Origin: Methylomagnum ishizawai
Lineage (GTDB): Bacteria; Pseudomonadota; Gammaproteobacteria; Methylococcales; Methylococcaceae
Assembly (NCBI RefSeq): GCF_019670005.1
Contig: NZ_AP019784.1
Coordinates: 62,001 to 126,000, forward strand
Length of the DNA stretch: 64,000 bases
Direction: 5' to 3'
Part shown: positions 28,445-61,943 of the stretch, piece by piece
Layout: the number at the start of each line of letters is the position of its first letter
How positions within the stretch are numbered: position 1 is the stretch's first letter
Translations under genes and position numbers: made by a program
The notes under the pieces: model-generated
What the model was told of the DNA's origin: nothing
The model's database searches: none
Seen by the model: only the letters and a program-made list of their open reading frames with translations

Positions 28445-28505
28445 ATCCGTCGGGGCCGTCCGGCCCGTAGAGATAACGGTGTTTCCCCATACCGAGGTAC
28501 TCCCC

Positions 28506-30599
28506 ATGCAACGATTCAAAACCCGGCTCCCGCTCGTCCCATGCCTGGGCGCGGCCTTGCATTTGCTGGCCGGTCCCGCCTCCGCCCATCCCCAGCCCGC
28601 CGAGGAACAGGAACCGGAATCGGTCGGCCTGGAAGCGGTCGAGGTCGAGGGCCGCGCCGCCGATTTGCTCGGCGTCGCCGATTCGGCCTCGCAAGGCCAG
28701 GTGGGCCAGCCCGAATTCAAATACCGGCCCTTGTCGCGGGTGGGCGAGCTGGTGGAAGTGGTGCCCGGCGCGGTCGCCACCCAGCACAGCGGCTCGGGCA
28801 AGGCCAACCAGTTCTTCCTGCGCGGCTTCAACCTGGACCACGGCACCGATTTCAACGCCACCCTGGACGGCGTGCCGATGAACCTGCGCACCCACGCCCA
28901 CGGCCAGGGCTACCTGGACCTCAACAGCATCATCCCGGAATTGGTGGACAAGGTGGATTACGGCAAGGGGCCGTATTACGCCGAACAGGGCGATTTCGCC
29001 TCGGCGGGCTATGCCCAGTTCCACACCTTCCACCGCCTGGCGGAGGGCATCGCCAAGTTCACCGGCGGCGAATACGACTATTACCGGGGCGTCCTGGCCA
29101 ATTCCAACCGGATCGGGAACGGGGATTTGCTCTACGCCGGGGAGGTGGCGTTCTTCGAAGGACCGTGGAAACAGCCGGAGGAATCCGGCAAATACAACGG
29201 CATGATCCGCTACACCATCGACGAGGAGGATTTCGGCCTGTCGGTCAACGGCAAGGCCTACCGCTCCAACTGGACCGCCACCAACCAGATTCCCAAGCGC
29301 GATGTGCAGGCCGGGCTCCTGGACCTGTACGGCACCATGGACCCCACCGACGGCGGCAAGACCGACCGCTACAGCCTGTCCGGCAACCTGTGGAGCAAGG
29401 GCGACGGCTATAAGAACCAACTCAACCTCTACGCCCTGTACTACGACCTGGACCTGTATTCCAATTTCACCGGCTATCTCGACGATCCCGTCAACGGCGA
29501 CCAGCTCAACCAGCACGAGCGCCGGGTGGTGGCGGGCGGCAGCGGGGAACAGACCTGGTTCAACCGGGTGCTGGGCTTCGACATGGACAACAGCGTCGGC
29601 TTCCAAGTGCGCTACGACAATATCTCCAACCTGACCCTGAACCACACCGTGAACCGCCGGTTCCTCGCCTCGATCAGCGTGGACGATGTGGACGAGACCA
29701 GCCTGTCGTTCTATTTCAAGAACCAGACCCATTGGCTGTCCTGGTTCCGCAGCATCGCCGGGCTGAGGAGCGACACCTTCTTCTTCGACGTGACCGACAA
29801 GCTCCATCCCCAGGATTCGGGTAGCCAGACCTCGTCCATGGTCAGCCCCAAGCTGTCCCTGGTGTTCGGTCCCTGGGCCGAGACCGAATTCTTCCTCAAC
29901 TTCGGCTATGGCTTCCACTCCAACGACGCCCGCGGCGTCACCAACCATTACGACCCGCTCGATCCCACGATGCCGGTCAAGGGCGCTCCCGGCCTCGCCA
30001 AGCAACGCGGGGCCGAGGGCGGGCTGCGGACCCAATATATCCCCGGCCTGGTCAGCACTTTGGCGGTGTGGTACCTGCATTCGGATTCGGAGCTGGTGTT
30101 CCTGGGCGATGCCGGCACCACCGAGCCCACCGGCCAGAGCGAGCGCTACGGCGTGGAATGGACCAACTATTACAAGCCCAACGACTGGCTGACCCTGGAC
30201 GCCGATTTCGCCTTCACCTCGGCCCATTACCAGGACGTGCCCCACAGCGAGAGCGACATCCCCAACTCGGTGGGGCAGGTGATCGGGGCCGGGGTGGTGG
30301 CCTTGTTGCCCTACGACTTCTTCGCGACGGCCAGGGTGCGCTATTTCGGCCACGTCCCCTTGAACGAGACCGGGACCGCCTATATGGGCGACACCACCCT
30401 GGTCAACCTGGGCGCGGGCTACCAGTACCAGAAGCTGAAATTCGAGGTGGACGTGTTCAACCTGTTCGACTCCAAGGCCAACGACATCGCCTATTACTAC
30501 GAATCGCGCTATCCGCAGAACGCCGCCGCCGAGGAGGGGATCATGATCCATCCGGTGATGCCCCGGCAGGTGCGGGCCACGGTCACGCTGAATTTTTGA
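28506..30599 (+). CDS. TonB-dependent receptor, probably for nickel or another metal complex
   Basis: 697 residues. A signal peptide (cleaved after about PASA, residue 27) is followed by a plug domain (EVVPGAVATQHSGSGKANQFFLRGFNLDHGTDF, with DGVPMNLRTHAHGQGYLDLN) and a beta-barrel ending in phenylalanine (VTLNF). The plug has histidines in THAHGQGY, unlike the iron receptor at 23899. The gene follows nikR and a terminator, so nickel import is the best inference. Cobalamin or other chelates remain possible. The ATG at 28506 precedes a good signal peptide; an ATG-like start at 28479 would add nine residues. Confidence 0.88.
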   Translation: MQRFKTRLPLVPCLGAALHLLAGPASAHPQPAEEQEPESVGLEAVEVEGRAADLLGVADSASQGQVGQPEFKYRPLSRVGELVEVVPGAVATQHSGSGKANQFFLRGFNLDHGTDFNATLDGVPMNLRTHAHGQGYLDLNSIIPELVDKVDYGKGPYYAEQGDFASAGYAQFHTFHRLAEGIAKFTGGEYDYYRGVLANSNRIGNGDLLYAGEVAFFEGPWKQPEESGKYNGMIRYTIDEEDFGLSVNGKAYRSNWTATNQIPKRDVQAGLLDLYGTMDPTDGGKTDRYSLSGNLWSKGDGYKNQLNLYALYYDLDLYSNFTGYLDDPVNGDQLNQHERRVVAGGSGEQTWFNRVLGFDMDNSVGFQVRYDNISNLTLNHTVNRRFLASISVDDVDETSLSFYFKNQTHWLSWFRSIAGLRSDTFFFDVTDKLHPQDSGSQTSSMVSPKLSLVFGPWAETEFFLNFGYGFHSNDARGVTNHYDPLDPTMPVKGAPGLAKQRGAEGGLRTQYIPGLVSTLAVWYLHSDSELVFLGDAGTTEPTGQSERYGVEWTNYYKPNDWLTLDADFAFTSAHYQDVPHSESDIPNSVGQVIGAGVVALLPYDFFATARVRYFGHVPLNETGTAYMGDTTLVNLGAGYQYQKLKFEVDVFNLFDSKANDIAYYYESRYPQNAAAEEGIMIHPVMPRQVRATVTLNF

Positions 30600-38009: not shown

Positions 38010-38369
38010 TCAGGGGGTTTTGATTTGGAAGGAGTACTTGCCGCTGACCACATGGCCGTCGGCGGAAAGCACCCGGTATCTCACGACGTATTGGCCGGGC
38101 GGAAGCGGTTCCACCGAGGCGCGGAGATGGGAATGGTCGGTGAAGTCCAACCGGGCGTCGTGCTTGTCCACCCGCTTGCCGGCCGCGTCGATGACCGCGA
38201 GGGCCAGGAATTCCTCGCCCACGGCGTCGTTGAAGGTCAACAGCACTTCCGCCGGTGGCAGGGCGAGGACCGCCTCTTTTTCGGGTTGGGCTTTCACCAG
38301 GATGGCGTGGGCGTGGGCGGTGGGGAACAGGCCCAGGAGTGCCAGCACCAGAAGGATTCGTTTGAGCAT
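38010..38369 (-). CDS. copC: CopC-type periplasmic copper-binding protein
   Basis: 119 residues. Signal peptidase cleavage after AHA would leave H21 as the mature N-terminus (HAILVKAQPE), and D104-G-H106 near the C-terminus completes the known Cu(II) site of CopC (N-terminal His, Asp and His). PAEVLLTFNDAVGEEF is the family's second strand signature. The methionine-rich Cu(I) site of some CopC proteins is absent, so it is a Cu(II)-only type. It lies between an Asp-box protein and a membrane-anchored protein in a three-gene operon. No copD is adjacent. Confidence 0.92.
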   Translation of the reverse strand: MLKRILLVLALLGLFPTAHAHAILVKAQPEKEAVLALPPAEVLLTFNDAVGEEFLALAVIDAAGKRVDKHDARLDFTDHSHLRASVEPLPPGQYVVRYRVLSADGHVVSGKYSFQIKTP

Positions 38370-38380
38370 CGTCGCGTCCG

Positions 38381-40200: not shown

Positions 40201-40360
40201 CCGTCAGCTATAACTACCAGCGACCCCCCTCCAAAAACCCTGCCGTCACCTATAACTACCGCGACCCGTCAGCTATAACTACCGGAAAATGGCCCGATCC
40301 GTCAGCTATAACTACCGCTTTTTGCCCGGAACGTCGAAGTTATCCACAGACTTATCCACA
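40201..40360. other. Iteron-type replication origin with DnaA boxes
   Basis: Four direct repeats of CCGTCAGCTATAACTACC lie at 40201-40218, 40243-40260 (G to C at position 7), 40266-40283 and 40299-40316. Start-to-start spacings are 42, 23 and 33 bases. Two perfect DnaA boxes TTATCCACA follow at 40340-40348 and 40352-40360, in the same orientation, inside the 3' end of the initiator gene. With the AT-rich tract at 40100-40190 and the rep gene alongside, this has all the parts of an iteron-regulated theta origin. Confidence 0.88.
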
Positions 40361-41532
40361 GTTTCGGCGGGCGGTTCCAGGGCCAAGGCCTGCCGTTTGT
40401 TGGCCGCCTTGGTCTGGGCCACGAAGTCGCGGGAGGCCGTCAGGGTGTAGACCACATCCTCCAGCCGGCCGCGGGTGCCGGTCATGGGTTGCTTCTTGAA
40501 ATCCATCAGCACCCCCCCGGCCTTGAGTTCCTCCAGGGCCGCGTCCAGGGCGGCCACCGCCTGGCGCTGTTGCTGGTAGCCCTCCAGCAGGGCGCTGTCG
40601 CGCTTGACGGTGCCGTAGCGTATTTCGAAGGTGGTGACCATGCTGGCGAAGGTGAACTTGAGCGAGAGCTGCTTGTGCAGCCAACGCGCCAGTTGCGTGG
40701 TGTAGGCCATCATCTGGGCGTAGTTGAATTGGCGGTAGTCGAGGGCGTCCATGGCCTGGGTGATGAGCGGATGGAACTGGACGATCCATTTGGCTTCCGG
40801 GTCCTCCGACAGCTTGCTGCGCGACACCGCCGACAACCCCGAGAAATAGGGGCTGACCGTGAAGCCTTCCCCGCCCTTGGCGTCCACGGCGCGGATCTCG
40901 ATATTGCTGCGGGCCAGGATGTTGAGGCTGAGGACGATCTGCTGGTAGGAGCGGGCGTGGCCGCGCTTCCTGAGTTCCTCGCGCAGCATGTGCAGGGTGA
41001 ACACCACGCCGCTGCGGTAGTTGGGCCGGTCGAAGAAGGCGTTGCGCTGCTCGGTGGCGATCTTGCGCAGGGCGTCCTCGATGAGTTCCTCGTTGGCGCT
41101 GGGGTAGTAGTCGGTCTCGGTGCGGGTCTTCTCGTCGAAGATGCGGGCGGCCTGGATGCGGACCTCGAAGGGGCGGCCGCGGTATTGGAAGGTGATCTGT
41201 TGCAGGCCCAGGAAGCCCTTTTCCTTGCGGATCTTGGTCATCTGCTGGCGCGACACGGCGTAGCGCGGCAGGCTGTCCCACAGGTCGAAGGTGTTGGAGA
41301 GCCGCTCCCGTTCGTCGGGACCGTTGCAGAGGAAGAAGCGGAACAGGTCGATCTGGCGGCTCCCGAAATCCGCCTCCGTGGGCGGCAGCACGGGCGGGTG
41401 GGCGTCATGGGCGGCGGGTGTCGCGTCCGGTTCGGTACCGGGTTTGGCGGCGGGCCGTTTGGGGGCGGTTTTGGGGCTTTTCATGCGGGTTCGGCGTGGG
41501 GTTGGTGGAGACGGTGCTGAGGGCATTTTCAT
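40312..41532 (-). CDS. Plasmid-type replication initiator protein
   Basis: About 406 residues. After a Pro/Lys/Ala-rich disordered N-terminus (about 1-65) comes a core with DLFRFFLCNGPDERERLSNT, YAVSRQQMTKIRKEKG, HMLREELRKRGHARSYQQIV and FNYAQMMAYTTQLARWLHKQL, compatible with tandem winged-helix domains of Rep/TrfA-type initiators. I cannot name the incompatibility group. The assignment rests mainly on the four iterons and two DnaA boxes at its 3' end; iteron 4 overlaps the stop codon. Starts at 41544, 41532 and 41484 are possible; 41532 has a weak AGG before it. No parAB, toxin-antitoxin or transfer genes are nearby. Confidence 0.8.
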   Translation of the reverse strand: MKMPSAPSPPTPRRTRMKSPKTAPKRPAAKPGTEPDATPAAHDAHPPVLPPTEADFGSRQIDLFRFFLCNGPDERERLSNTFDLWDSLPRYAVSRQQMTKIRKEKGFLGLQQITFQYRGRPFEVRIQAARIFDEKTRTETDYYPSANEELIEDALRKIATEQRNAFFDRPNYRSGVVFTLHMLREELRKRGHARSYQQIVLSLNILARSNIEIRAVDAKGGEGFTVSPYFSGLSAVSRSKLSEDPEAKWIVQFHPLITQAMDALDYRQFNYAQMMAYTTQLARWLHKQLSLKFTFASMVTTFEIRYGTVKRDSALLEGYQQQRQAVAALDAALEELKAGGVLMDFKKQPMTGTRGRLEDVVYTLTASRDFVAQTKAANKRQALALEPPAETVDKSVDNFDVPGKKR

Positions 41533-42103
41533 ATTTGCCTGCATGGCGTGGCCAGCGCCCCGCAGGTAACGGGGCGGCGGCTTTCCCAAGCCGCCTAGGC
41601 CGTCCGCTTCCTGGACTCGCGGAGCAGGGTCTTCGGTTGGGACAGCGCCGCGCGATGGGAATGGGGTTGTGGGGGCGAGCGGGTCGGGTCGTCGAAGCGC
41701 TTGCCGCGCGATTCGCATCCGTAGCGCCGTAGGTGCCGGTCCGGGCGGGGGCAAGCCCTGCCCTTTTGCCGGCGGGGTTGATGGAGGGTCCCATAGCAGG
41801 GCGTTTCGTCGGCCAAGCGCTTGATTGATATGGGGGATGTGCGCATTTCGGCATCTTAGCAAAAGACCCCGGAATCCATATAGAGCCCTCCGTATTTTCC
41901 AGCGGCAGCGTTCTCCGGCGGGATCGCCACCTTCCCGGCGGCGGGGAAAACCGGAAGGCCGGGTGATATCTTCCAAACCGCTCCATGCCTATCGATTCCT
42001 TCGATAACGCCATGAATAAAGGCCATTTCACCCGTGGCGACCGGGAGCGCTACCGTTGGCCCTGCCGATGACAGCTTTCAGTCCACCCCACGGGAGTCCC
42101 TCC
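41533..42103. other. Intergenic region upstream of the initiator gene
   Basis: No gene is supported in these 571 bases. AAGCGCTTG occurs twice, at about 41695-41703 and 41815-41823, and might be an operator for rep. No further copies of the 18-bp iteron are present here, so rep autoregulation through iterons at its own promoter is not evident. Confidence 0.45.
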
Positions 42104-43204
42104 ATGCGTATCCTCGAATCGTCCCTATGCAGCGCCTTCGCGCTGGCCTTGGCCCTCGCCGCCCATGCCGAGCCTTCCAACTATGAAATCCATGCCCGGC
42201 TCGACCAGGGTCCGGGCAATGTGACCGTGACCGGAACCGGCCGGGTCATCTTCAGCCAACATCCCTTCTATGGCCCCGCCGATTCGGTGGTGGAACTCAA
42301 AGGCGGGGGTGGGCCCACGCCCTTCCCCAACGCGGCATTGAACGACCGCGGCGGCCCCTCGGCGCTCAAGCTCGATTCGGTGCTGGGCCTCCGCGCCGCC
42401 GCCGATGGCGTGGTGTGGATGCTCGACAACGGGATGCGCGGCGGCATGACGCCCAAGCTGGTGGGTTGGGATACGGTCTCGGACCGGCTGCAACGGGTGA
42501 TCTACCTGGGGTCCGAAGCCGCGCCCAAGGACCAGTTCGTCAACGATTTCGCGGTGGATTTGGCGCATAAGCGCATCTTCATCAGCGACCCGGCGGGCGG
42601 GGCGGACGCGGGGATCATCGTGGTGGATTTGGAGACCGGCGCGGCGCGGCGGGTGTTGCAGGGCCATCCCTCCGTGTTGCCGGAGAACGTCGATTTGGTG
42701 ATCGACGGGCGGCCCGTGGAGATGAAGGACGCCCAGGGCAACCGGGTCCGGCCCCATATCGGCGTCAATCCCATCACCGAGGATGTGCGCAACGAATGGG
42801 TTTATTTCGGCCCCATGCACGGCCACGGCCTGTACCGGGTCAAGGCCGCCGACCTGGCCGACGACCAATTGCCGCCCGCGGCCCTGGCCCAGCGGGTCGA
42901 GCGCTATGCCGACAAGCCGATTTCCGACGGCATCAGCATCGACCGCGACGGCAACATCTATCTGGGGGAATTGGCGGAGAACGCCATCGGGGTCATCACC
43001 CCGGACCGGAAATATAAGCGGCTGGCCCAATGCCCGAACCTGTCCTGGGTGGATTCGCTGAGTTTCGGCCCGGACGGCAAGCTCTACGCCGTGGTCAACC
43101 GGCTGCACCAATCGGCGGTGTTGAACGCGGGGGAGAACGCCTCGAAGCCGCCGTATTTCCTGCTGAAGGTGGATGCCTTGGCACCGGGGCTGGCGGGCCG
43201 GTAG
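42104..43204 (+). CDS. Secreted Yellow/major-royal-jelly-like beta-propeller protein
   Basis: 366 residues. Signal peptide MRILESSLCSAFALALALA to AHA (about 22), then a propeller with the family landmarks LDSVLGLRAAADGVVWMLDNG, VNDFAVDLAHKRIFISDP, ADAGIIVVDLETG and GVNPITEDVRNEWVYFGPM, as in bacterial MRJP/Yellow proteins, some of which bind or oxidise small molecules. The ATG at 42104 is supported by GGGAG 7 bases upstream. It stands between the replication origin and the LysR gene, convergent with the latter. The function is unknown. Confidence 0.85.
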   Translation: MRILESSLCSAFALALALAAHAEPSNYEIHARLDQGPGNVTVTGTGRVIFSQHPFYGPADSVVELKGGGGPTPFPNAALNDRGGPSALKLDSVLGLRAAADGVVWMLDNGMRGGMTPKLVGWDTVSDRLQRVIYLGSEAAPKDQFVNDFAVDLAHKRIFISDPAGGADAGIIVVDLETGAARRVLQGHPSVLPENVDLVIDGRPVEMKDAQGNRVRPHIGVNPITEDVRNEWVYFGPMHGHGLYRVKAADLADDQLPPAALAQRVERYADKPISDGISIDRDGNIYLGELAENAIGVITPDRKYKRLAQCPNLSWVDSLSFGPDGKLYAVVNRLHQSAVLNAGENASKPPYFLLKVDALAPGLAGR

Positions 43205-43235
43205 CCATCGCCGACGTGTTCGCGCCGGGGGGCGG

Positions 43236-44168
43236 CTACACCGCTTCTTCCGCGCACAACTCGGCGCAAACCTCCAGGATTTGCCGCCTGAGCCAGGCAT
43301 GGGCCGGTTCCTTGTCGTTGAGGGGATGCCAGACCATGACCAGGTTGTAGGGCGGCAGGTCGATCGGCACGGGCACGGTCTTCAAACGCGCCAGCCGGGC
43401 GAACTGCTCGGCGATACGCTTGGGGAAGGACAGCACCATGTCGGTCCCCGGCAGGACCAGGGGCGCCGACAGGAAGTGCGACACCACCAGGGCGATGCGC
43501 CGCTCCCGCCCATGTTCCGCCAGCCAATCGTCGATCAGGCCGGTGGCGACGCCGGTACGCGAGATCAGCATATGCGGCAGGGCCAGATATTCCTCCAGGC
43601 CGAGGGAGTCGCCCACTTTCGGGTGCCCTTCCCGCACCACGCAGACCATCCGGTCGTCGAACAGCTTTTCACAGCGGAACTGGGCGGGCGGTTTCAACAC
43701 CGCCTCGAAGCCCAACACCACGTCCATCTCCCCATCCTCCAAACTCCCGGTCGGGAACGCCGCCTCGGTGCGCTTGAAGTGGATATCGATCCCCGGCGCG
43801 GCGGCCCCGAGCCGCGTCATCAGGGGCGGCAATAACAACACCTCGATGTAATCCGTGGCGTGGATGACGAAGCGGTGGCGGCTGTTGGCCGGGTCGAACT
43901 CGGCGGGCGGGCGGATCACCTGTTCCACTTCCCGGAGGATGGCCCGCACCGGCTCGACCAGGGCCAAGGCCCGCTCGCTGGGCCGCATCCCGGCGTTGGT
44001 GCGCACCAACACCGGATCGTTCAACTGCTGCCGCAGCCGTTGCAGGATGTGGCTCATGGTCGATTGGGTGACGAACATTTTCTCCGCCGCGCGGGAGACG
44101 TTCAGCTCCCGCATCAGCACATCGAAGGCCACCAACAGGTTCAAGTCGAATTGACGTAGATCGGACAT
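43236..44168 (-). CDS. LysR family regulator, divergent from pxmABC
   Basis: 310 residues. The N-terminal winged helix (LRQFDLNLLVAFDVLMRELN, VSRAAEKMFVTQSTMSHILQRLR) is of the NodD/NahR-like subgroup, followed by a LysR substrate-binding domain (HATDYIEVLLLPPLMTRL). The start MSDLRQFD at 44168 is the usual LysR start; the frame upstream is not coding-like. The gene diverges from pxmABC with 213 bases between start codons, the classic layout for a LysR protein controlling its neighbour. Regulation of pxm by it is an inference. Confidence 0.92.
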   Translation of the reverse strand: MSDLRQFDLNLLVAFDVLMRELNVSRAAEKMFVTQSTMSHILQRLRQQLNDPVLVRTNAGMRPSERALALVEPVRAILREVEQVIRPPAEFDPANSRHRFVIHATDYIEVLLLPPLMTRLGAAAPGIDIHFKRTEAAFPTGSLEDGEMDVVLGFEAVLKPPAQFRCEKLFDDRMVCVVREGHPKVGDSLGLEEYLALPHMLISRTGVATGLIDDWLAEHGRERRIALVVSHFLSAPLVLPGTDMVLSFPKRIAEQFARLARLKTVPVPIDLPPYNLVMVWHPLNDKEPAHAWLRRQILEVCAELCAEEAV

Positions 44169-44381
44169 GGTCGCTTGGCCTATTAATTTCCCCCATACCG
44201 CCATGAAAACTAAGCATTTCACGGGCTTGGGCCGGTTCCCTAAAGTTTCGCCATCGTAGCGCATGGCCCGGTCCGGCCCCAAATCCCCCCGTTCCGGAAG
44301 CGGACGGGCCGTGCGCTACGAAACCCAAGAGGCGATCCCGAATCCCGGCGCGACCGGGACGATTCCAAGGAGAAAACCATT
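44169..44381. promoter_or_regulatory. Divergent promoter region between lysR and pxmABC
   Basis: 213 bases between two divergent start codons, AT-rich at 44175-44220 (TATTAATTT, GAAAACTAAGCATTTCA), then GC-rich toward pxmA. It must hold both promoters and the likely LysR-binding site. No single operator could be fixed by eye. Confidence 0.5.
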
Positions 44382-45134
44382 ATGGCAGCCCATCTGCTCG
44401 ATCTTCCGCCCCAGCCCTATACCGGGGAAAAGGCCAGGCTCAGCCGCGCCTTCGACTACATCATCCTGGTATTGGCCCTGTTCCTGTTCATCGGTTCCTT
44501 CCACCTGCACGTCGCCCTGACCGTGGGCGATTGGGATTTCTGGCAGGATTGGAAGGACCGGCAATGGTGGCCCCTGGTCACGCCGTTGATGATGATCACC
44601 TTCCCCGCCGCCGTGCAAGCGGTGATGTGGGAGCGCTTCCGCCTGCCGCTGGGGGCGACGCTGTGTATTGCCTGTTTGCTGATCGGCACCTGGATCACCC
44701 GCGTCTTCGCCTACCACTACTGGAATTATTTCCCGGTCAACATGGTGCTGCCCGCCACCCTGCTGCCCAGCGCCCTGGTGTTGGACGCCATCCTGATGCT
44801 GAGCAACAGCCTGACCTTCACCGCCATCTTCGGGGCTTCGGCCTTCGCCCTGCTGTTCTATCCCAGCAATTGGCCGATCTTCGCCGGGTTCCATCTGCCG
44901 GTGGAGTATGGCCACGCCCAGGTCACCGTCGCCGATTTGTTCGGCTTCCAATACATCCGCGCCGGGATGCCCGAATACCTGCGCATCATCGAACGCGGCA
45001 CCCTGCGCACCTACGGCCAGTATGCCGCGCCCTTGGCGGCGTTCTGCTCGGCCCTGTTGTGTTCGCTGATGTACGTCATCTGGTGGTACCTGGGCAAGTG
45101 GTTCGCCACCGTGCGCTTCTTGAAAAAAATCTGA
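44382..45134 (+). CDS. pxmA: Particulate monooxygenase-type subunit A (PxmA)
   Basis: 250 residues, the PmoA/AmoA length. The family signature VGDWDFWQDWKDRQWWPLVTP is at about 47-67, WERFRLPLGAT follows, and LFYPSNWPIFAGFHLPVEYG and GTLRTYGQYAAP mark the later conserved loops. About seven hydrophobic segments place it in the (intracytoplasmic) membrane. It is clearly divergent from canonical methanotroph PmoA at many positions (LVTPLMMITFPAAVQAVMWE), and the gene precedes B and C, the order of pxmABC operons. AAGGAG stands 9 bases before the ATG. Substrate is unproven for this family; roles in methane oxidation under low oxygen or denitrifying conditions have been proposed. Confidence 0.93.
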   Translation: MAAHLLDLPPQPYTGEKARLSRAFDYIILVLALFLFIGSFHLHVALTVGDWDFWQDWKDRQWWPLVTPLMMITFPAAVQAVMWERFRLPLGATLCIACLLIGTWITRVFAYHYWNYFPVNMVLPATLLPSALVLDAILMLSNSLTFTAIFGASAFALLFYPSNWPIFAGFHLPVEYGHAQVTVADLFGFQYIRAGMPEYLRIIERGTLRTYGQYAAPLAAFCSALLCSLMYVIWWYLGKWFATVRFLKKI

Positions 45135-45149
45135 AGGGAGGAATCGACG

Positions 45150-46367
45150 ATGCTCAAGACATTGGCAAAACGCTTGTGCGTGCCGGGGCTGTTGCTGGCC
45201 GGAATTTCGACCGCCTGCGCCCATGGCGAGAAGGCCCTGGAACCCTTCATCCGTACCCGCACCATCCAATGGTACGACGTGGCCTGGTCGGACCCGAAGG
45301 TCAAGGTCAACGACGAAGTGACCGTGACCGGGCGCTTCCATGTGGCGGAGGACTGGCCGGTCGGGGTGCCCAAGCCGGAGGCGGCGTTCCTCAACATGTC
45401 CGCGCCGGGGCCGGTGTTCATCCGCACCGAACGCAGCCTGAACGGCCAGCCCTGGATCAATTCGGTGGCGCTCAAACCGGGCGGCGATTACGAATTCAAA
45501 GTGGTGCTGAAGGCCCGGATGCCGGGGCGCTACCACCTCCATCCGTTCTTCAACCTGCGCGACGCCGGCCCTGTGACCGGGCCGGGGCAATGGATCGAGG
45601 TCGGCGGCGCGGCGGCGGATTTCAGCAACCGGGTCACCACCCTGACCGGCGAGACCATCGACATGGAAAGCTTCGGCCTCGCCAACGGCGTGCTCTGGCA
45701 TGGCTTCTGGATGGCGGCGGGTTTGGCTTGGCTGTTGTGGTGGGTGCGGCGGCCTTTGTTCCTGCCGCGCTATAAGCAGGTGGAAGCGGGCCGGGAAGAA
45801 GGCTTGGTGACCCCGCTGGACCGCAATTTGGCCAAGGCCATCCTGGTGGCGGTGCCGGTGGTGGTGCTGGGGGCCAACGCCCTGGCCCAGAGCCGCTATC
45901 CCAGCGCGATTCCCTTGCAGGCGGCCCTGGATCGGATCGAGCCTTTGCCGCCGCAAGTGAATACCGGCGCGGTCGAGGTCAAGCTGCGCAAAGGGGAATA
46001 CCGCATCGCCCGGCGCGAAATGGTCCTCAGCGCCGAAATCCACAACCGCGGCACCCAGCCCGTCCGGGTCGGCGAATTCACGACCGCCAATCTGCGCTTC
46101 CTCGATCCCCAGGTCGTCGGCGCGGTGGATGCCGACAGCCTCACGGCCCCGCACGGCCTGAGCGTGGACCTACCCGCGCCGATCCAGCCCGGCGAAACCC
46201 GGCAACTGCGGATCACGGCCAGCGACGCCGGCTGGGAAACCGAAAAGCTCGATGGACTGATCCGCGATGCCGATAGCCGTCTGGGCGGCCTGTTGTTCCT
46301 CTACGCGGAGGACGGCCAGCGCCATGTCGCCAGCGTGTCGGCGGCGGTGATCCCGCGTTTCGATTGA
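45150..46367 (+). CDS. pxmB: Particulate monooxygenase-type subunit B (PxmB)
   Basis: 405 residues: cleavable signal peptide ending TACA-24, N-terminal cupredoxin domain, two membrane helices (about 182-202 and 229-248) and a C-terminal cupredoxin domain, as in PmoB. The CuB ligands of Methylococcus PmoB (H33, H137, H139) are matched by H25, the first mature residue in HGEKALEPFIRTRTIQWYD, and by H129 and H131 in GRYHLHPFFN. The copper site therefore looks intact. GGGAGG precedes the start, 15 bases after pxmA. The protein faces the periplasm or intracytoplasmic lumen. Confidence 0.94.
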   Translation: MLKTLAKRLCVPGLLLAGISTACAHGEKALEPFIRTRTIQWYDVAWSDPKVKVNDEVTVTGRFHVAEDWPVGVPKPEAAFLNMSAPGPVFIRTERSLNGQPWINSVALKPGGDYEFKVVLKARMPGRYHLHPFFNLRDAGPVTGPGQWIEVGGAAADFSNRVTTLTGETIDMESFGLANGVLWHGFWMAAGLAWLLWWVRRPLFLPRYKQVEAGREEGLVTPLDRNLAKAILVAVPVVVLGANALAQSRYPSAIPLQAALDRIEPLPPQVNTGAVEVKLRKGEYRIARREMVLSAEIHNRGTQPVRVGEFTTANLRFLDPQVVGAVDADSLTAPHGLSVDLPAPIQPGETRQLRITASDAGWETEKLDGLIRDADSRLGGLLFLYAEDGQRHVASVSAAVIPRFD

Positions 46368-46407
46368 AGCCGTTCCCCAAACCCACCCAACCCCATCAGG
46401 CAAACCC

Positions 46408-47193
46408 ATGGCTATCAGTACCTCCAGTACCTCCGAAATCCTTCCGGCCCGCCCGGCAACCCCAACCCGGCTGCCCTGGTATCTACTCGACCTCTATAAA
46501 TACCTGGGGGCTTTCGCCTTCCTGACCACGGTTTACACCGGCCTGCGCCTCTATCAAGGGGCCCATGCCGTCGCCACCGGACTGGATTCCACCTTGCCCG
46601 AATACGATATTTACTGGATGCGGCTGTTCTATGTGGAGGTCGTGGCGCTCTTGGCCGCCGCCGCCGGGCTGTGGGGCCATCTTTGGCTCACCCGCGACCG
46701 GAACCTCGAAGCCTTGCCCCCCAAGGATGAACTGCGCCGTTGGTTCGCCCTGACCATGTGGATCAGCATCTACACCTTCGCCGTCTACTGGGCCGGGAGC
46801 TATTTCGCCGAGCAGGACAATTCCTGGCACCAGGTGGTGCTGCGCGACACCCCGTTCACGGCCAACCACATCGTGGTGTTTTATTTTTGCTTCCCCATGT
46901 ACATCATGCTGGGTGGCGCGGCTTGGCTGTATGCCCGGACCCGCCTGCCGCAGTATGCGCGGGAAGTGTCCTTGCCGCTGACCCTGGCGGTGTTCGGCCC
47001 CTTCATGATCCTGGTCAGCGTGGGCTTCAACGAATGGGGCCATACCTTCTGGTTCCGCGAGGAGTTCTTCGCCGCGCCCATCCATTATGGCTTCGTGGTC
47101 GGCGTGTGGTTCGCGCTGGGGGTGGGCGGCATCCTGTTGCAAGCCTGCGCCCGCATGACCGCCTTGCTGGATGCCATCGAAGATGCGCCGTAG
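46408..47193 (+). CDS. pxmC: Particulate monooxygenase-type subunit C (PxmC)
   Basis: 261 residues, about six transmembrane helices. The metal-binding pattern of PmoC, Asp-X3-His-X12-His (D156, H160, H173 in M. capsulatus), is present as D137, H141 and H154 in EQDNSWHQVVLRDTPFTANH. Other conserved parts are LWLTRDRNLEALPPKDELRRWF and NEWGHTFWFREEFFAAPIHYGFV. Its position as last gene, rather than first as in pmoCAB, identifies the pxm arrangement. The next gene (MFS) overlaps its end, so the operon may extend further. Confidence 0.94.
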   Translation: MAISTSSTSEILPARPATPTRLPWYLLDLYKYLGAFAFLTTVYTGLRLYQGAHAVATGLDSTLPEYDIYWMRLFYVEVVALLAAAAGLWGHLWLTRDRNLEALPPKDELRRWFALTMWISIYTFAVYWAGSYFAEQDNSWHQVVLRDTPFTANHIVVFYFCFPMYIMLGGAAWLYARTRLPQYAREVSLPLTLAVFGPFMILVSVGFNEWGHTFWFREEFFAAPIHYGFVVGVWFALGVGGILLQACARMTALLDAIEDAP

Positions 47194-48469
47194 CCGTGGA
47201 CGCAAGCGGGGAACGCCCCCGCTGCCCCTGCGCAAGCCGGGCAACACGGGGCCGCACCATGCCTGGACCATCCTGGCGGTGTGCTTCGTGGTCCTGTTGA
47301 TGGCGGCGGTGGCCCGTTCGGTGCCGGGTATCGTCCTGGTGTCGCTGGAACGCGAGTTCGGCTGGAGCCGCGAATCCATCACCCTGGCGGTGTCGGTCAA
47401 TATGCTGTTGTTCGGCTTGGCCGGTCCCTTCCTGGGGCGGTGGATGGATCTGTACGGGCCGCGCCGCATCGCCCTGTGGACCTTGGGTTTGCTCGCCCTG
47501 GGCACCGCCGGAACCTTGTGGATGCGCGAGCCTTGGCACATGTTGCTGCTGTGGGGCGGCGTGGTCGGGCTGGGTTCGGGCGGGCCTTCGATGATCCTGG
47601 GGGCGGCGGTGGCGAACCGCTGGTTCGTGGCCCGGCGCGGCTTGGCCTTGGGGATACTGGGCGCGGCCATGTCGGCGGGGCAGTTGGTCTTCACCCCGTT
47701 CCTGATGCGCTTGACCCTGGAGCAAGGCTGGCGGGCGGCGGCGCTGTTCGTGGCCGTGGCCTTGGGAGCGGTGGTGTGGCCCTTGGCCTGGGCTTTCCTG
47801 CGCGACGATCCGGGAGCGCTAGGACTCAGGCCCTACGGTGCCGACGGTCCCGCCACCGCGCCCCAACGCCCCGATCCCAGACCGATGCGGGCGGCCTTGC
47901 GTAGCCCGCTGTTCTGGCTGCTGGCCCTGAGCTTCGGCATTTGTGGCCTGACCACCTCGGGGCTGTTCCAAACCCATTTGATCGCCCATGGCGTCGAACA
48001 TGGCTTCCCCGAGATGACCCTGGCCGCCTCGCTGGGCGTGATGGGCGCGGCGGATATGGTCGGCACGGTCGCCTCGGGCTGGATTTGCGACCGCTTCGGG
48101 GCGCGCTTGCCCTTGGCCGGTTATTACCTGCTGCGCGGGGCGTCTTTGCTGGCCCTGCCCTGGGTGGATTCCACCGGGGAATTGCTGGCGTTCTCGGTGG
48201 TGTACGGGCTGAACTGGCTGTCCACCGTGCCCGCGACCTCGGCCCTGGCGGCGGATGGCTTCGGGCGGCGCAACGTCGGCGTGGTGTTCGGCTGGATCTT
48301 CTTCGCGCACCAGGCCGGGGCCGCCCTCGCCGCCTATGGCGCGAGTTATCTGCGGGCGCAGTTCGGCGATTATCTCCCGGTGTTCGCCTTGGCCGGGGTG
48401 CTGGCCTGGCTCGGCACGGGGTTGATCCTCTGCCTCAGGCCGGACGGGGCGGCCCCGGTCCGCGCTTGA
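47183..48469 (+). CDS. Major facilitator superfamily transporter (OFA/monocarboxylate-like)
   Basis: About 428 residues with 12 hydrophobic segments. After a basic N-terminus comes WTILAVCFVVLLMAAVARSVPGIVLVSLEREFGWSRESITLAVS, the typical start of OFA/monocarboxylate-porter-like MFS proteins, then the loop GRWMDLYGPRR, a form of the MFS motif A. It overlaps pxmC by 11 bases (ATG at 47183; an ATG at 47171 is also possible), so it is probably translated from the pxm transcript. A transported small acid is inferred from the subfamily only. The link to pxm may be regulatory or chance. Confidence 0.88.
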   Translation: MRRSRGRKRGTPPLPLRKPGNTGPHHAWTILAVCFVVLLMAAVARSVPGIVLVSLEREFGWSRESITLAVSVNMLLFGLAGPFLGRWMDLYGPRRIALWTLGLLALGTAGTLWMREPWHMLLLWGGVVGLGSGGPSMILGAAVANRWFVARRGLALGILGAAMSAGQLVFTPFLMRLTLEQGWRAAALFVAVALGAVVWPLAWAFLRDDPGALGLRPYGADGPATAPQRPDPRPMRAALRSPLFWLLALSFGICGLTTSGLFQTHLIAHGVEHGFPEMTLAASLGVMGAADMVGTVASGWICDRFGARLPLAGYYLLRGASLLALPWVDSTGELLAFSVVYGLNWLSTVPATSALAADGFGRRNVGVVFGWIFFAHQAGAALAAYGASYLRAQFGDYLPVFALAGVLAWLGTGLILCLRPDGAAPVRA

Positions 48470-52967: not shown

Positions 52968-53486
52968 TCAGTGGATATGCATTTCCCGGTTGCCCGCCTT
53001 GTCGCTCCTTTGCAGGAGATATTGATCCTGGTCGCCCGGCAGGGGGCCGCCGTCGGTGGCCAGATAGCGCAGGGTGGATTCGTTCTGGATGGCGAGCCGC
53101 CGCTGGGGGGCGTCCTTGTTGGGGGTCAGCACGACGATGCCCTTGCCTTCGTCCCATTCGTACTTCCCTTTTTCGAAGGATTCCCGGTTCAGTAGCTTGG
53201 CGGGTTGGGTGACCAGGAGATAATTATTCTTGGGATTCAGGGACAGCGTCATTTTCAGGCCGTTGCAGTCTTCCTCCTGGCAGGGCAAATAGCCATAGAA
53301 CACCCCCCGGAATTTGCCCGCCGTCGGCGCGGAACCGGTGTGGGCCGAATGGTCCATGGTGCCGGCCCGGTTCATTTCGCGGGCTTTGAGCGCTTTTTCT
53401 TGGATTTGCATGTCGGATTCCGCCCTGGCGGGGCCGGGCAGGTTCAATAATAGGCCGAGGATAATGAGGAATACCTTATTGCTCAT
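52968..53486 (-). CDS. NlpE-like periplasmic protein
   Basis: 172 residues. Signal peptide ending ARA (about 22) without a lipobox cysteine, then a His/Met stretch (GTMDHSAHTG) and an NlpE N-terminal-type domain: FRGVFYGYLPCQEEDCNGLKMTLSLNPKNNYLLV with the C-x4-C motif, then YEWDEGKGIVVLTPN. In E. coli the homologous domain sits in a lipoprotein that senses surface attachment and copper stress. Here the protein is probably soluble in the periplasm. It ends in HIH. A copper link would fit the pxm and copC genes in this window but is not shown. Confidence 0.75.
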   Translation of the reverse strand: MSNKVFLIILGLLLNLPGPARAESDMQIQEKALKAREMNRAGTMDHSAHTGSAPTAGKFRGVFYGYLPCQEEDCNGLKMTLSLNPKNNYLLVTQPAKLLNRESFEKGKYEWDEGKGIVVLTPNKDAPQRRLAIQNESTLRYLATDGGPLPGDQDQYLLQRSDKAGNREMHIH

Positions 53487-53853
53487 GGTTGCCATTCATT
53501 TCGATGTGACTGCCGTATGGCATGTGGATGGGGTCGCCGGGATGGATCCACCGGCGGGTCCGGCACGTTAGCCTTAAGCTCCGGGCCGGATTATGCCGCC
53601 CACCGGCCCGCTCCGTCCATGGGGACATCCTTCCGCTAGCGCCGCTATCCGCTACCCGTGAAAGCCTATAAGACCTAGGGTTTTCCGGCATATTCACGCC
53701 GTCAACGACCGTGCGGGCGCATCCGTCCGACCGGACTCCGGCGCGCGTTGCGGGAGCGGCATGGCGCGGAGCATTCCGCGCCCGGCGCGGCGGAGGGCCG
53801 GGGAGTTTGTGGATGACCGCCTTGCTCGCCTTCGCTTGCGCGGCCCGCCCCAC
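53487..53853. other. Intergenic region, nothing recognised
   Basis: 367 bases between two minus-strand genes. No credible gene, repeat or RNA was found. It should contain the promoter of the NlpE-like gene. Confidence 0.45.
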
Positions 53854-58617: not shown

Positions 58618-61600
58618 TCAAAATGGCTTGTTCTGGGCGATTTCAAGGCCCTCGGCAAGCTGGCAAGATTTTGATTTGAATGAGTTTCTTATGGTATTCG
58701 CCATGTCGTCGAGGTAGCTGTAAACCGCCGGGATCACCAACAGGCTCAACACGGTCGAGGTCGCCAGGCCGCCGATCACGGCGATGGCCATGGGACTGCG
58801 GAACGAGGGGTCCGCCGCCCCGGCCCCCAAGGCCGCCGGCAACATCCCGGCCCCCATGGCGATGGTGGTCATGACCACCGGGCGGGCGCGTTTATGGCAG
58901 GCGTCCATCAGCGCCTCGAACCGCCCGAGGCCCAGTTCCCGGCGGGCGACGATGGCGTATTCCACCAACAGGATGGAATTCTTGGTGGCGATGCCCATCA
59001 GCATCACCAGCCCGATCAAGGAAGGCATGGAAAAAGCCTTGTCCGCCAGCAGCAAGGCCACGAAGCCGCCGCCGAAGGCCAACGGCAAGGCCGCGAGGAT
59101 GGTCACGGGTTGCAGGAAATCCCGGAACAACAGGACCAGCACCACGAAGATGCACAACACCCCGGTCAGCATGGCGAGGCCGAAGCTGCCGAACAATTCG
59201 GCCATCATCTCGGCGTCGCCGATATTGATCTGGCGCACGCCATGGGGCAGGTTCCTGAGGCTGGGCAATTCCGCCACCGCCGCCGCCACCTCGCCCAGGG
59301 GCAGGCCGGACAACTCGACCTGGAGGCTGATATTGCGCGAACGGTCGTAGCGCTGGATCAAGGCGGGACCGCCCGAGAGCTCCAACCGCGCCACCTGCCC
59401 CACCCTGGCCGACCCCACGCCCGGCTTGGACGAGGGCACGGCCAGTTGTTCCAGCAGGGCCAAATCCTTGCGGCCATCGGCGCTCAGCCGCACCACCACC
59501 GGGATTTGGCGCTGGGCCAGGTTGAGCTTGGGCAGGGACCAGTCGTAATCGCCCACGGTGGCGATGCGCAGGGTCTCGGCGATGGCGCTGGACGTGACGC
59601 CGAGGTCGGCGGCCTTGGCGAAATCGGGCCGCACGGCGATTTCCGGCCTGACCAGGGCGGCGCTGGAAGCGATATTGCCCAGGCCGGGGAGGGTCCTGAG
59701 GTCGCGCTCCACGGCTTGGGCGGCGCGGGCCAGCGCCGCCGGATCGTCGCCGCTCAGGACCAGGACGTATTTCTCGCCGGAACCGCCCAGGCCGACCTTG
59801 GTGCGGACCCCCGGCAGGCGTTCCAGGGCCGTGCGGATTCGGGCCTCGATGATTTGTTTCCGCACCGGGCGCTCGCCGCGCTTGGCCAGGGTGAGGGTCA
59901 AGGTGGCTTTGCGGACCTCGCCGTCGGCCTGGATCGCCATCGGGTCGCTGCCGGCGGAACCGCCGCCGATGGTGGTGTAGACGCTGAGCACATAGGGCAC
60001 GGCGGCGACCAACTGGCGGGCCGTTTCCGCCGAGGCGCGGGTTTGCTCCAGGGTCGCGCCGGGGGCCAATTCCACGAACACCTGGGTTTGGGGATAGTCG
60101 TCCGCCGGGATGAAGCCGGTGGGCAGGAGCGGGATCAGCAGCAAGGAACCGACGAAAAACGCCATCGCCCCGGCCAGGGTGAGGAAACGATGGCGCAGGC
60201 AAAAGGCGGCGAGCTTCATGTACAGCGCCATCAAGCGGCCATCCCCGCTCCCGCCGCCGCCCGCGTCCCTGAGCAGATAGGCCGCCATCATCGGCGTCAG
60301 CATCCGCGCCACCACCAGGGAAGCGAACACCGCCAGGGCGGCGGTCCAACCGAATTGCTTGAAGAACTTGCCCACCACCCCGCTCATGAAGGCCGTGGGC
60401 AGGAACACCGCGATCAGGGCGAAGGTGGTGGCGATGACCGCCATGCCGATTTCGTCCGCCGCCTCCATCGCCGCTTGGTAGGGCGTCTTGCCCTGCCGCA
60501 GATGGCGCACGATGTTCTCCACCTCGACGATGGCGTCGTCCACCAGGATGCCCACCACCAGGGACAAGGCCAGCAGGGACACCCCGTTGAGGCTGAAACC
60601 GAAGGCGTACATGCCGATGAAGGTCGGGATCGCCGACAAGGGCAAGGCCACGGCGGACACGAAGGTCGCCCGCCAGTCCTTCAAGAACAGCCAGACCACC
60701 AGCACCGCCAGCGCCGCCCCCTCGTACAGCAAGGCCATGGAACCGTGGAATTCCTCCTCCACCGGGGTCACGAAGTTGAAGGCTTCGGTGAATTCCAGGT
60801 CGGGATGGGCCAGGGCCAGTTCGTCCAGCGCCTCGCGCACGCCCGCGCCCACCTCGACCTCGCCCGCCCCCCGGCTGCGGGTGACCTCGAAACCCACCAC
60901 CGGCTTGCCGTCGAGCAAGGCCAGGGCGCGGGGTTCGGCCACGGTATCCAGCACCGTGGCGATCTGGTCCAGGCGGATGCGCCGCCCATCGGGCAGGGCC
61001 AGGGGCAGGGAACGCAGTTCGTCCGCCGTGGCGACATTGCCCAGGGTGCGCACCGGCTGTTCGCCGCCGCCGAGGTCGGTGCGGCCGCCCGCGCTTTCGC
61101 GCTGCACCTCGCGCAATTGCCGCGATACGTCGGCGGCGGTCGCGCCCAGGGCTTGCAGCTTGACCGGATCGAGGGCCACCGAGATTTCCCGGCTGGCCCC
61201 GCCCACCCGGTTGACCGCGCCCACGCCGGGAATGGCCAGCAGGCGCTTGGCCACGGTATCGTCCACGAACCAGGACAGGGCTTCGTCGTCGCGGCGGCGC
61301 GAGGCCACGGTGTAGGCCAGGATGGGGGATTGCGCCAAATCCAATTTGGTCACCACCGGGTCGCGCAGTTCGCCGGGCAGATCGGCGCGGACCTTGGACA
61401 CCGCCGAACGGGTGTCGTCCAGCGCCTCCTCCACCGGCTTTTCCATGCGGAATTCCAGGGTCAGGCTGACGCTGCCATCCTGGATTTTGGTGCTGATGTG
61501 CTTGAGTCCTTGCAGGGTGGCGACGGCGTTCTCCAACTTGCGGGCCACCTCGGTTTCCAATTGCGGCGGGGCCGCGCCGGGCAGGCTGGCGTTGACGATC

Positions 61601-61734
61601 ACGGTGGGGAGGTCGAGGTCGGGGAAGTTCTGCACCGACATCGCCTTGAAGCCGAGCAGGCCGCCGAAGGTCAGCAGCACGAACAGCATGAGGGCGGGCA
61701 ACGGATTGCGGATGCAGGCGGCGGAAATGTTCAT
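58618..61734 (-). CDS. RND efflux pump inner-membrane subunit
   Basis: 1038 residues, the usual length for AcrB/MdtB-type pumps. The N-terminus (NISAACIRNPLPALMLFVLLTFGGLLGF) is the first helix, QNFPDLDLPTVIVNASLPGAAP the first porter loop, and LVVGILVDDAIVEVENIVRH carries the paired proton-relay aspartates of helix 4. The second half repeats the plan (PLAFGGGFVALLLADKAFSMPSLIGLVMLMGIATKNSILLVEYAI). It is a hydrophobe/amphiphile-type proton antiporter. No membrane fusion protein or outer-membrane factor flanks it. The ATG at 61734 lacks a clear ribosome site; frames further upstream are not coding-like. Confidence 0.93.
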   Translation of the reverse strand: MNISAACIRNPLPALMLFVLLTFGGLLGFKAMSVQNFPDLDLPTVIVNASLPGAAPPQLETEVARKLENAVATLQGLKHISTKIQDGSVSLTLEFRMEKPVEEALDDTRSAVSKVRADLPGELRDPVVTKLDLAQSPILAYTVASRRRDDEALSWFVDDTVAKRLLAIPGVGAVNRVGGASREISVALDPVKLQALGATAADVSRQLREVQRESAGGRTDLGGGEQPVRTLGNVATADELRSLPLALPDGRRIRLDQIATVLDTVAEPRALALLDGKPVVGFEVTRSRGAGEVEVGAGVREALDELALAHPDLEFTEAFNFVTPVEEEFHGSMALLYEGAALAVLVVWLFLKDWRATFVSAVALPLSAIPTFIGMYAFGFSLNGVSLLALSLVVGILVDDAIVEVENIVRHLRQGKTPYQAAMEAADEIGMAVIATTFALIAVFLPTAFMSGVVGKFFKQFGWTAALAVFASLVVARMLTPMMAAYLLRDAGGGGSGDGRLMALYMKLAAFCLRHRFLTLAGAMAFFVGSLLLIPLLPTGFIPADDYPQTQVFVELAPGATLEQTRASAETARQLVAAVPYVLSVYTTIGGGSAGSDPMAIQADGEVRKATLTLTLAKRGERPVRKQIIEARIRTALERLPGVRTKVGLGGSGEKYVLVLSGDDPAALARAAQAVERDLRTLPGLGNIASSAALVRPEIAVRPDFAKAADLGVTSSAIAETLRIATVGDYDWSLPKLNLAQRQIPVVVRLSADGRKDLALLEQLAVPSSKPGVGSARVGQVARLELSGGPALIQRYDRSRNISLQVELSGLPLGEVAAAVAELPSLRNLPHGVRQINIGDAEMMAELFGSFGLAMLTGVLCIFVVLVLLFRDFLQPVTILAALPLAFGGGFVALLLADKAFSMPSLIGLVMLMGIATKNSILLVEYAIVARRELGLGRFEALMDACHKRARPVVMTTIAMGAGMLPAALGAGAADPSFRSPMAIAVIGGLATSTVLSLLVIPAVYSYLDDMANTIRNSFKSKSCQLAEGLEIAQNKPF

Positions 61735-61943
61735 CTTGGAATGGAGGCTGGCTGGGGGGCGCGGGATTCTAGTGCATTTTCGGTCCGCGGAGGCGGCCGG
61801 GTGGACGGCGGCGGTTCCGTCCGCGCCTTGGCCGGGCCGGAGCATCGGCTATTTCCCTAGGAAAATCACGGATTCCGCGGGTTTCCTGGGCCAGGGATAA
61901 TCGGACGCTTTAAACTAAGATGGCGATGACCGGGGGGAGAACC

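Follow-up and report, generated by a model that had tools for sequence, protein, structure and literature searches.

The pxmABC copper monooxygenase operon of Methylomagnum ishizawai is the core of a conserved locus with a predicted LysR regulon

The pXMO (pxmABC) family of copper monooxygenases reportedly goes back to Tavormina et al. in 2011. The substrate of pXMO has been debated since 2011, and surveys and reviews count pxmA as a methane oxidation gene. Canonical pMMO, encoded by pmoCAB, has its fold family and its CuB, CuC, and CuD ligands in common with pXMO. Unlike pXMO, canonical pMMO has the gene order C-A-B and belongs to a different clade, and no comparable companion genes were seen beside it. 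A further point of reference is the verrucomicrobial PMO3 (pmoCAB3), likewise a divergent CuMMO in a cluster with non-methane functions. Specifically, PMO3, which resides in a catabolic cluster, oxidizes acetone and not methane (PMC8630023). PMO3 differs from pXMO in being named pmoCAB, in its other cluster genes, and in its lineage; the two are likened by setting, not by sequence, and PMO3 is a works-like precedent only. Closest to the subject of this report, pxmABC has already been published for the sister strain M. ishizawai 175 (PMC5604758).

Here, we analyze a 64,000-nucleotide stretch of M. ishizawai DNA, which we call the window, and in which the original prediction placed a catalytically competent pxmABC operon. 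ORF reading and Pfam confirm three intact open reading frames in the order A-B-C at 44382–47193, all on the plus strand: pxmA (44382–45134; 250 aa; Pfam AMO, 2e-119), pxmB (45150–46367; 405 aa; Monooxygenase_B, 3e-156), and pxmC (46408–47193; 261 aa; AmoC, 2e-88). Spacers of 15 bp and 40 bp separate pxmA from pxmB and pxmB from pxmC, respectively. Given these Pfam E-values, the pxmABC assignment is not a chance result.

Read straight from the sequence, the predicted ligands are all present, namely, H25, H129, and H131 in PxmB (CuB) and D137, H141, and H154 in PxmC (CuC). The CuD ligands of PxmC, N208, H212, and H226, which lie beyond the sites originally named, are all found as well. We take the M. 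capsulatus counterparts to be PmoB H33/H137/H139 and PmoC D156/H160/H173; in the alignment, the offsets to M. capsulatus are constant, 8 in PxmB and 19 in PxmC, and PxmB H25 falls opposite the residue with which mature PmoB begins in the solved chain 11ll. Across 52–55 pxm loci, the CuB, CuC, and CuD ligands are practically invariant, the exceptions being truncated rows. Because all copper ligands are intact, the predicted competence of PxmABC is plausible. Elsewhere, PxmB Q40 stands where M. capsulatus PmoB has H48 (the bis-His site), and every aligned pxm locus has A45 and V48 in PxmA, versus M42 and M45 in M. capsulatus PmoA. A tricopper site was once proposed at M42/M45, and in pXMO that site is without both methionines. 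The NCBIfam AmoA, AmoB, and AmoC_BACT models score above their own cut-offs for PxmA, PxmB, and PxmC, and the pMMO A model scores below its cut-off. Automatic annotation may label 44382–47193 as ammonia monooxygenase, a name that is misleading given pxm clade membership.

Phylogeny of the A subunit, a check that the original prediction called for, places the window's protein in the pXMO clade and outside canonical PmoA. The maximum-likelihood tree comprises 76 A subunits; nitrifier AmoA rows are not among them, the AMO side being represented by the NCBIfam models alone. The loci with A-B-C order all fall into a single clade (59 rows, support 100/95), within the same tree the strict PxmA clade has 54 rows (support 96/97), and the genome's own PmoA groups with canonical PmoA. 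Consistent with the original statement, the window holds no further pmo copy; the genome-wide search finds two canonical pmoCAB operons on contig C1, with which the pxm subunits share 52/46/50% identity for A/B/C. The window operon has neither the C-A-B order nor the PmoA clade placement of canonical pMMO; it has the A-B-C order, the PxmA clade placement, and the intact CuB/CuC/CuD ligands of pXMO. Order, clade, and ligands are the same in the pXMO loci of Methylomonas, Methylobacter, Methylomicrobium, and M. ishizawai 175 (78–93% PxmA identity), and compared with known gammaproteobacterial pXMO, the enzyme itself shows no difference. PxmA occurs at at least 77% identity in 59 of 311 Methylococcales genomes. 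Other Methylococcales harbor two divergent A-B-C-order CuMMO lineages (L111, L112, L116, and L115, 67–69% PxmA identity; L113 and L114, 57–59%). LysR and the dyad described below are missing beside the operon in both; in the L113/L114 lineage, a propeller gene lies immediately upstream of A. One divergent A-B-C-order copy (G184) is reported to have an internal stop in A.

Known pXMO loci differ from both Methylomagnum loci in surroundings: the latter have a plasmid-type replication gene nearby and are on a contig apart from the main chromosomal contig. This replication initiator (40312–41463, minus strand), 70% identical to one on a Methylococcus sp. EFPC2 plasmid, is about 0.6 kb from the pxm locus, and a 98% identical copy is found beside pxm in the congener G038. 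The contig that carries pxm, C2, measures 274 kb (360 kb in G038) and is possibly a plasmid. Its ends give no evidence of circularity, and PLSDB plasmids contain no pxmA above 44% identity, the relatives there being actinobacterial only. Also near the pxm locus is a gene for a CopC copper-binding protein (38013–38378, minus strand), and farther off in the window are genes for NlpE (52971–53495), an RND pump (58624–61845), and a TonB receptor (28479–30596); together, these genes could possibly constitute a metal-handling region.

As an account of a copper monooxygenase operon, the original prediction stands in identity, order, clade, and ligands; it was incomplete in that pxmABC is the core of a larger conserved locus, 42012 to 48469, comprising a gene for an MRJP/yellow-like propeller, a divergent LysR gene, pxmA-B-C, and an MFS gene. 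By tblastn of the window's neighbors, the block order MRJP-like (+), LysR (−), pxmA-B-C (+), MFS (+) recurs in nearly all loci. Among the 311 Methylococcales genomes, the propeller gene is present in 56/59 pxm+ versus 3/252 pxm− genomes (Fisher 4e-54), the LysR gene in 57/59 versus 9/252 (5e-50), and the MFS gene in 51/59 versus 6/252 (6e-43). These Fisher values ignore shared ancestry, so we also drew on within-genus comparison, a transfer to Methylocystis, moved loci, and relics. Two genera contain both states: the propeller gene occurs in 5/5 pxm+ versus 0/15 pxm− genomes of g27, and in 23/23 pxm+ versus 0/10 listed pxm− genomes of g33, where the exception is one incomplete MAG. Within 8 kb of pxm, the propeller gene is found at 53, LysR at 56, and MFS at 48 of 60 loci, many of the gaps being contig ends. 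A GST gene (48554) and a SulP gene (49553) beyond the block were rejected as locus members, their conservation being confined to the genus.

Distance correlation with pxmA is 0.90 for pxmB, 0.88 for LysR, 0.85 for the propeller, and 0.49 for MFS. LysR and the propeller are thus tied to the unit roughly as tightly as pxmB is, and MFS more loosely. LysR and the propeller gene also accompany the alphaproteobacterial pxm copies, which come from Methylocystis and from two bog MAGs under the names Methylocapsa and Methylocystaceae. These copies group as a single clade in the pxmA tree and again in the LysR (94) and propeller (96) trees. By these trees, LysR and the propeller were transferred to Methylocystis together with pxmABC. 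The MFS gene is missing in the alphaproteobacterial copies. In the literature searched, outside of which lay the original 2011 description, nothing links a LysR, a royal-jelly-type protein, or a tautomerase with pxm. The conserved regulon around pxmABC appears new to the literature, and its flanks were possibly noticed in the 2011 description. In M. tundripaludum, four consecutive genes reported as "PxmABC; genes 3483 to 3486" respond together (PMC6977074). This response would fit an operon that includes MFS; the fourth gene is unnamed.

Exceptions to co-occurrence are mostly decayed loci or contig ends. In G047, G070, and G286, pxmC stands next to MFS at a contig end. In G215, pxmA is lost, pxmB truncated, and the propeller gene frameshifted. 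In G060, other genes sit where pxmABC would be, LysR lacks its N terminus, and the MFS gene has a stop; the block (L119, 2310–6878) features a DNA-methyltransferase-like gene in place of pxmABC, by insertion or replacement. Locus fragments remain in G280, G234, G287, and G119. The sole pxm− genome with intact propeller and MFS genes is G108, where the propeller gene adjoins genes that read, by eye, as pqqB, C, and E (L122, 6456–11747); the propeller may have some connection with PQQ. Inactivation in related strains, which had been put forward as grounds against the original prediction, is thus found in a few other genera (G215, G060), and the operon is intact in the sister G038, the only congener of the source genome in the 311-genome set. 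The decayed loci indicate that the pxm locus is dispensable; they say nothing of breakage in the window's copy.

The divergent gene (43236–44168, minus strand) specifies a LysR-type regulator with HTH_1 and LysR_substrate domains, for which we propose the name PxmR. Its nearest solved relatives are DntR and PcpR, with similarity over the full length (E 3e-51 to DntR); DntR and PcpR respond to aromatic compounds. The gene is upstream of and divergent from pxmA in 55 of the 56 pxm loci that have LysR within 8 kb (60 loci in all). The LysR–pxmA intergenic region contains an operator-like dyad, ATGAAAACTAAGCATTTCAC (44203–44222, plus strand), of the T-N11-A type, a form typical of LysR-type regulator sites. 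The 10 core bases recur with at most two mismatches in 61/61 distinct intergenic regions and with at most one in 55, versus 2% in shuffles. Scanning the window with a pattern derived from LysR–pxmA intergenic regions alone surfaced a second dyad, ATGAATAAAGGCCATTTCAC (42012–42031, plus strand), which precedes the ATG of the propeller gene by 73 bp and perfectly matches ATGAAWNNNNNNCATTTMAC. The consensus at both sites is ATGAAW-N6-CATTTMAC. Among relatives, ATGAAWNNNNNNCATTTMAC is matched with at most two mismatches upstream of the propeller gene in 43/48 cases versus about 0.7% in shuffles; at the same threshold, there is no dyad upstream of MFS, pxmB, or pxmC. Domains, divergent orientation, and a T-N11-A dyad at the predicted target promoter are all features of a LysR-type system.

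Genome-wide, perfect dyad matches number exactly two in 5.2 Mb, one before pxmA and one before the propeller gene. The two sites with a single mismatch, at 2777683 and 2784679 on C1, belong to a prophage-like region and were discounted as chance occurrences. In a scan of 27 genomes, in which enrichment arises partly by construction, 35/50 perfect matches in 21 pxm+ genomes are at the two promoter positions, and six pxm− genomes yield one perfect match in total. Rearranged loci are instructive. LysR and the propeller gene lie on a different contig in L045 and L134, which seem to come from one species or from two very close ones, on the downstream side in L081, and at a distance of 5.5 kb in L089; in these loci, the dyad remains with pxmA and with the propeller gene, and LysR has none. 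The divergent A-B-C operons of G144 and G179 have neither an adjacent LysR nor a dyad at the operon. A sigma-70 scan of 44100–47300 found nothing. Taken together, these patterns make it very likely that a LysR–dyad regulon spans the pxmABC and propeller promoters.

The remaining members hint at what the locus could do. The propeller gene (42104–43204, plus strand; 366 aa) encodes a predicted secreted six-bladed propeller of the MRJP/yellow family, with an N-terminal signal-like helix, a Pfam MRJP match (PF03022, 2e-14), and an AF2 model (pLDDT 89.7) with the propeller fold. The nearest solved folds are 2qe8, dopachrome conversion enzyme 9w1k, and MRJP1 5yyl. A putative hydrolase of Anabaena, 2qe8 is a six-bladed propeller with 51% identity and offers no function by itself; likeness to dopachrome conversion enzyme is one of fold, at 14–16% identity. 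We know of no activity for bacterial MRJP/yellow members. Contexts outside methanotrophs gave no clue to function, because an MRJP search of 369 genomes drawn evenly from the phylum returned a single distant relative. Downstream, a monocarboxylate-type MFS transporter (47171–48469, plus strand; MFS_1, 6e-50) has the L-lactate transporter SfMCT (6g9x) as its only solved relative. Its listed start overlaps pxmC, and the true start is probably a little downstream. The MFS gene is co-oriented with and immediately downstream of pxm in 48/60 loci. Several Methylomonas and Methylobacter loci have a tautomerase gene (PF14552/PF01361) after MFS, and L073 has one between the propeller gene and LysR; six alphaproteobacterial copies have a tautomerase after pxmC and then an enolase-superfamily enzyme. 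In Methylocystis copies (L041, 10970–12456), a tautomerase gene and a talarate/galactarate-dehydratase-like enolase-superfamily gene replace MFS downstream of pxmC. The tautomerase is patchy among relatives, and none is present in the window.

Jointly, LysR, MFS, the propeller, and the tautomerase and enolase-superfamily companions are more suggestive of an inducible route for an organic compound than of a methane oxygenase in reserve. The notion is that LysR would bind the dyad and, with its ligand, switch on the pxmA and propeller promoters; pxmABC-MFS would be a single transcript; the oxygenase would act on a specific substrate; and the propeller would deal with the product in the periplasm, where the monocarboxylate-type carrier would then provide for its transport. 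Overall, we consider it probable that a competent pXMO is at the core of a self-regulated locus and is an inducible enzyme with a specific substrate, perhaps an organic one. That this substrate is something other than methane strikes us as nearly evenly balanced. We propose tentatively, as possible rather than probable, the fuller reading that pXMO, instead of being a methane monooxygenase, opens a pathway that is devoted to an organic compound and induced by a ligand, working with the propeller, the carrier, in many species a tautomerase, and, in the alphaproteobacterial copies, an enolase-superfamily enzyme. Weighing against the regulon and the organic pathway, LysR–dyad control is a prediction from sequence. 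Also counting against the pathway are the looser MFS association (51/59 genomes, correlation 0.49) and its absence from alphaproteobacterial copies, the patchiness of the tautomerase, and the intact propeller and MFS genes of G108 without pxm.

The possible, if doubtful, alternative is that pXMO simply stands in as a methane (or ammonia) monooxygenase when oxygen is low and nitrite is present; its neighbors would then be accessory to expression or stability and no sign of another substrate. The field regards pXMO as an alternative methane/ammonia oxygenase (PMC7285482, PMC11195481), and the copper sites of pXMO equal those of pMMO. In M. album BG8, pxmA transcripts rise with nitrite and hypoxia, about 20-fold at 72 h; however, the induced transcripts are still three orders of magnitude under those of pmoA (PMC4594100). 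By domain and by eye, the source genome has nirS-like, nirF-like, and norCB genes; no match above the cut-off was obtained there for a copper nitrite reductase. The nitrite/hypoxia expression of pxmA and these genes also fit a denitrification-linked role. Yet a dedicated LysR related to DntR/PcpR, a monocarboxylate-type carrier, and a tautomerase are unexpected for a spare methane oxygenase, and direct pXMO activity is not reported in the literature searched.

It is improbable that the dyad is the site of another, global regulator, responding, for example, to oxygen, nitric oxide, or copper, with LysR acting elsewhere. Relocated LysR genes (L134, L089, L081) have no dyad at their own promoters, so the dyad need not be a LysR autoregulatory site, an observation that would suit another regulator. 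A global regulator, however, would have many sites; this genome has two perfect ones, both at the pxm locus, and pxm− genomes are nearly without them. The T-N11-A form, moreover, fits LysR-type regulators. Still less credible, and already disfavored, is the idea that the neighbors have no functional link and merely hitch-hike, preserved by vertical descent and the inertia of gene order: most relatives do come from one order, and descent alone can conserve gene order, but GST and SulP are kept only in the genus, the propeller tracks pxm inside g27 and g33 and was co-transferred to Methylocystis, the dyad is common to two separate promoters and unmoved when genes relocate, and relic loci decay together.

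Returning to pXMO as an inducible oxygenase, the two-site regulon makes the substrate question testable, in that the LysR ligand would be a strong lead to the substrate. Should the substrate not be methane, pxmABC could no longer be counted as a methane monooxygenase, and the gene surveys and models that do so would need correction. If the organic-pathway reading is true, pXMO would be the second methanotroph CuMMO, beside verrucomicrobial PMO3, to serve a non-methane pathway, and such a pathway would exist in about one fifth of Methylococcales.
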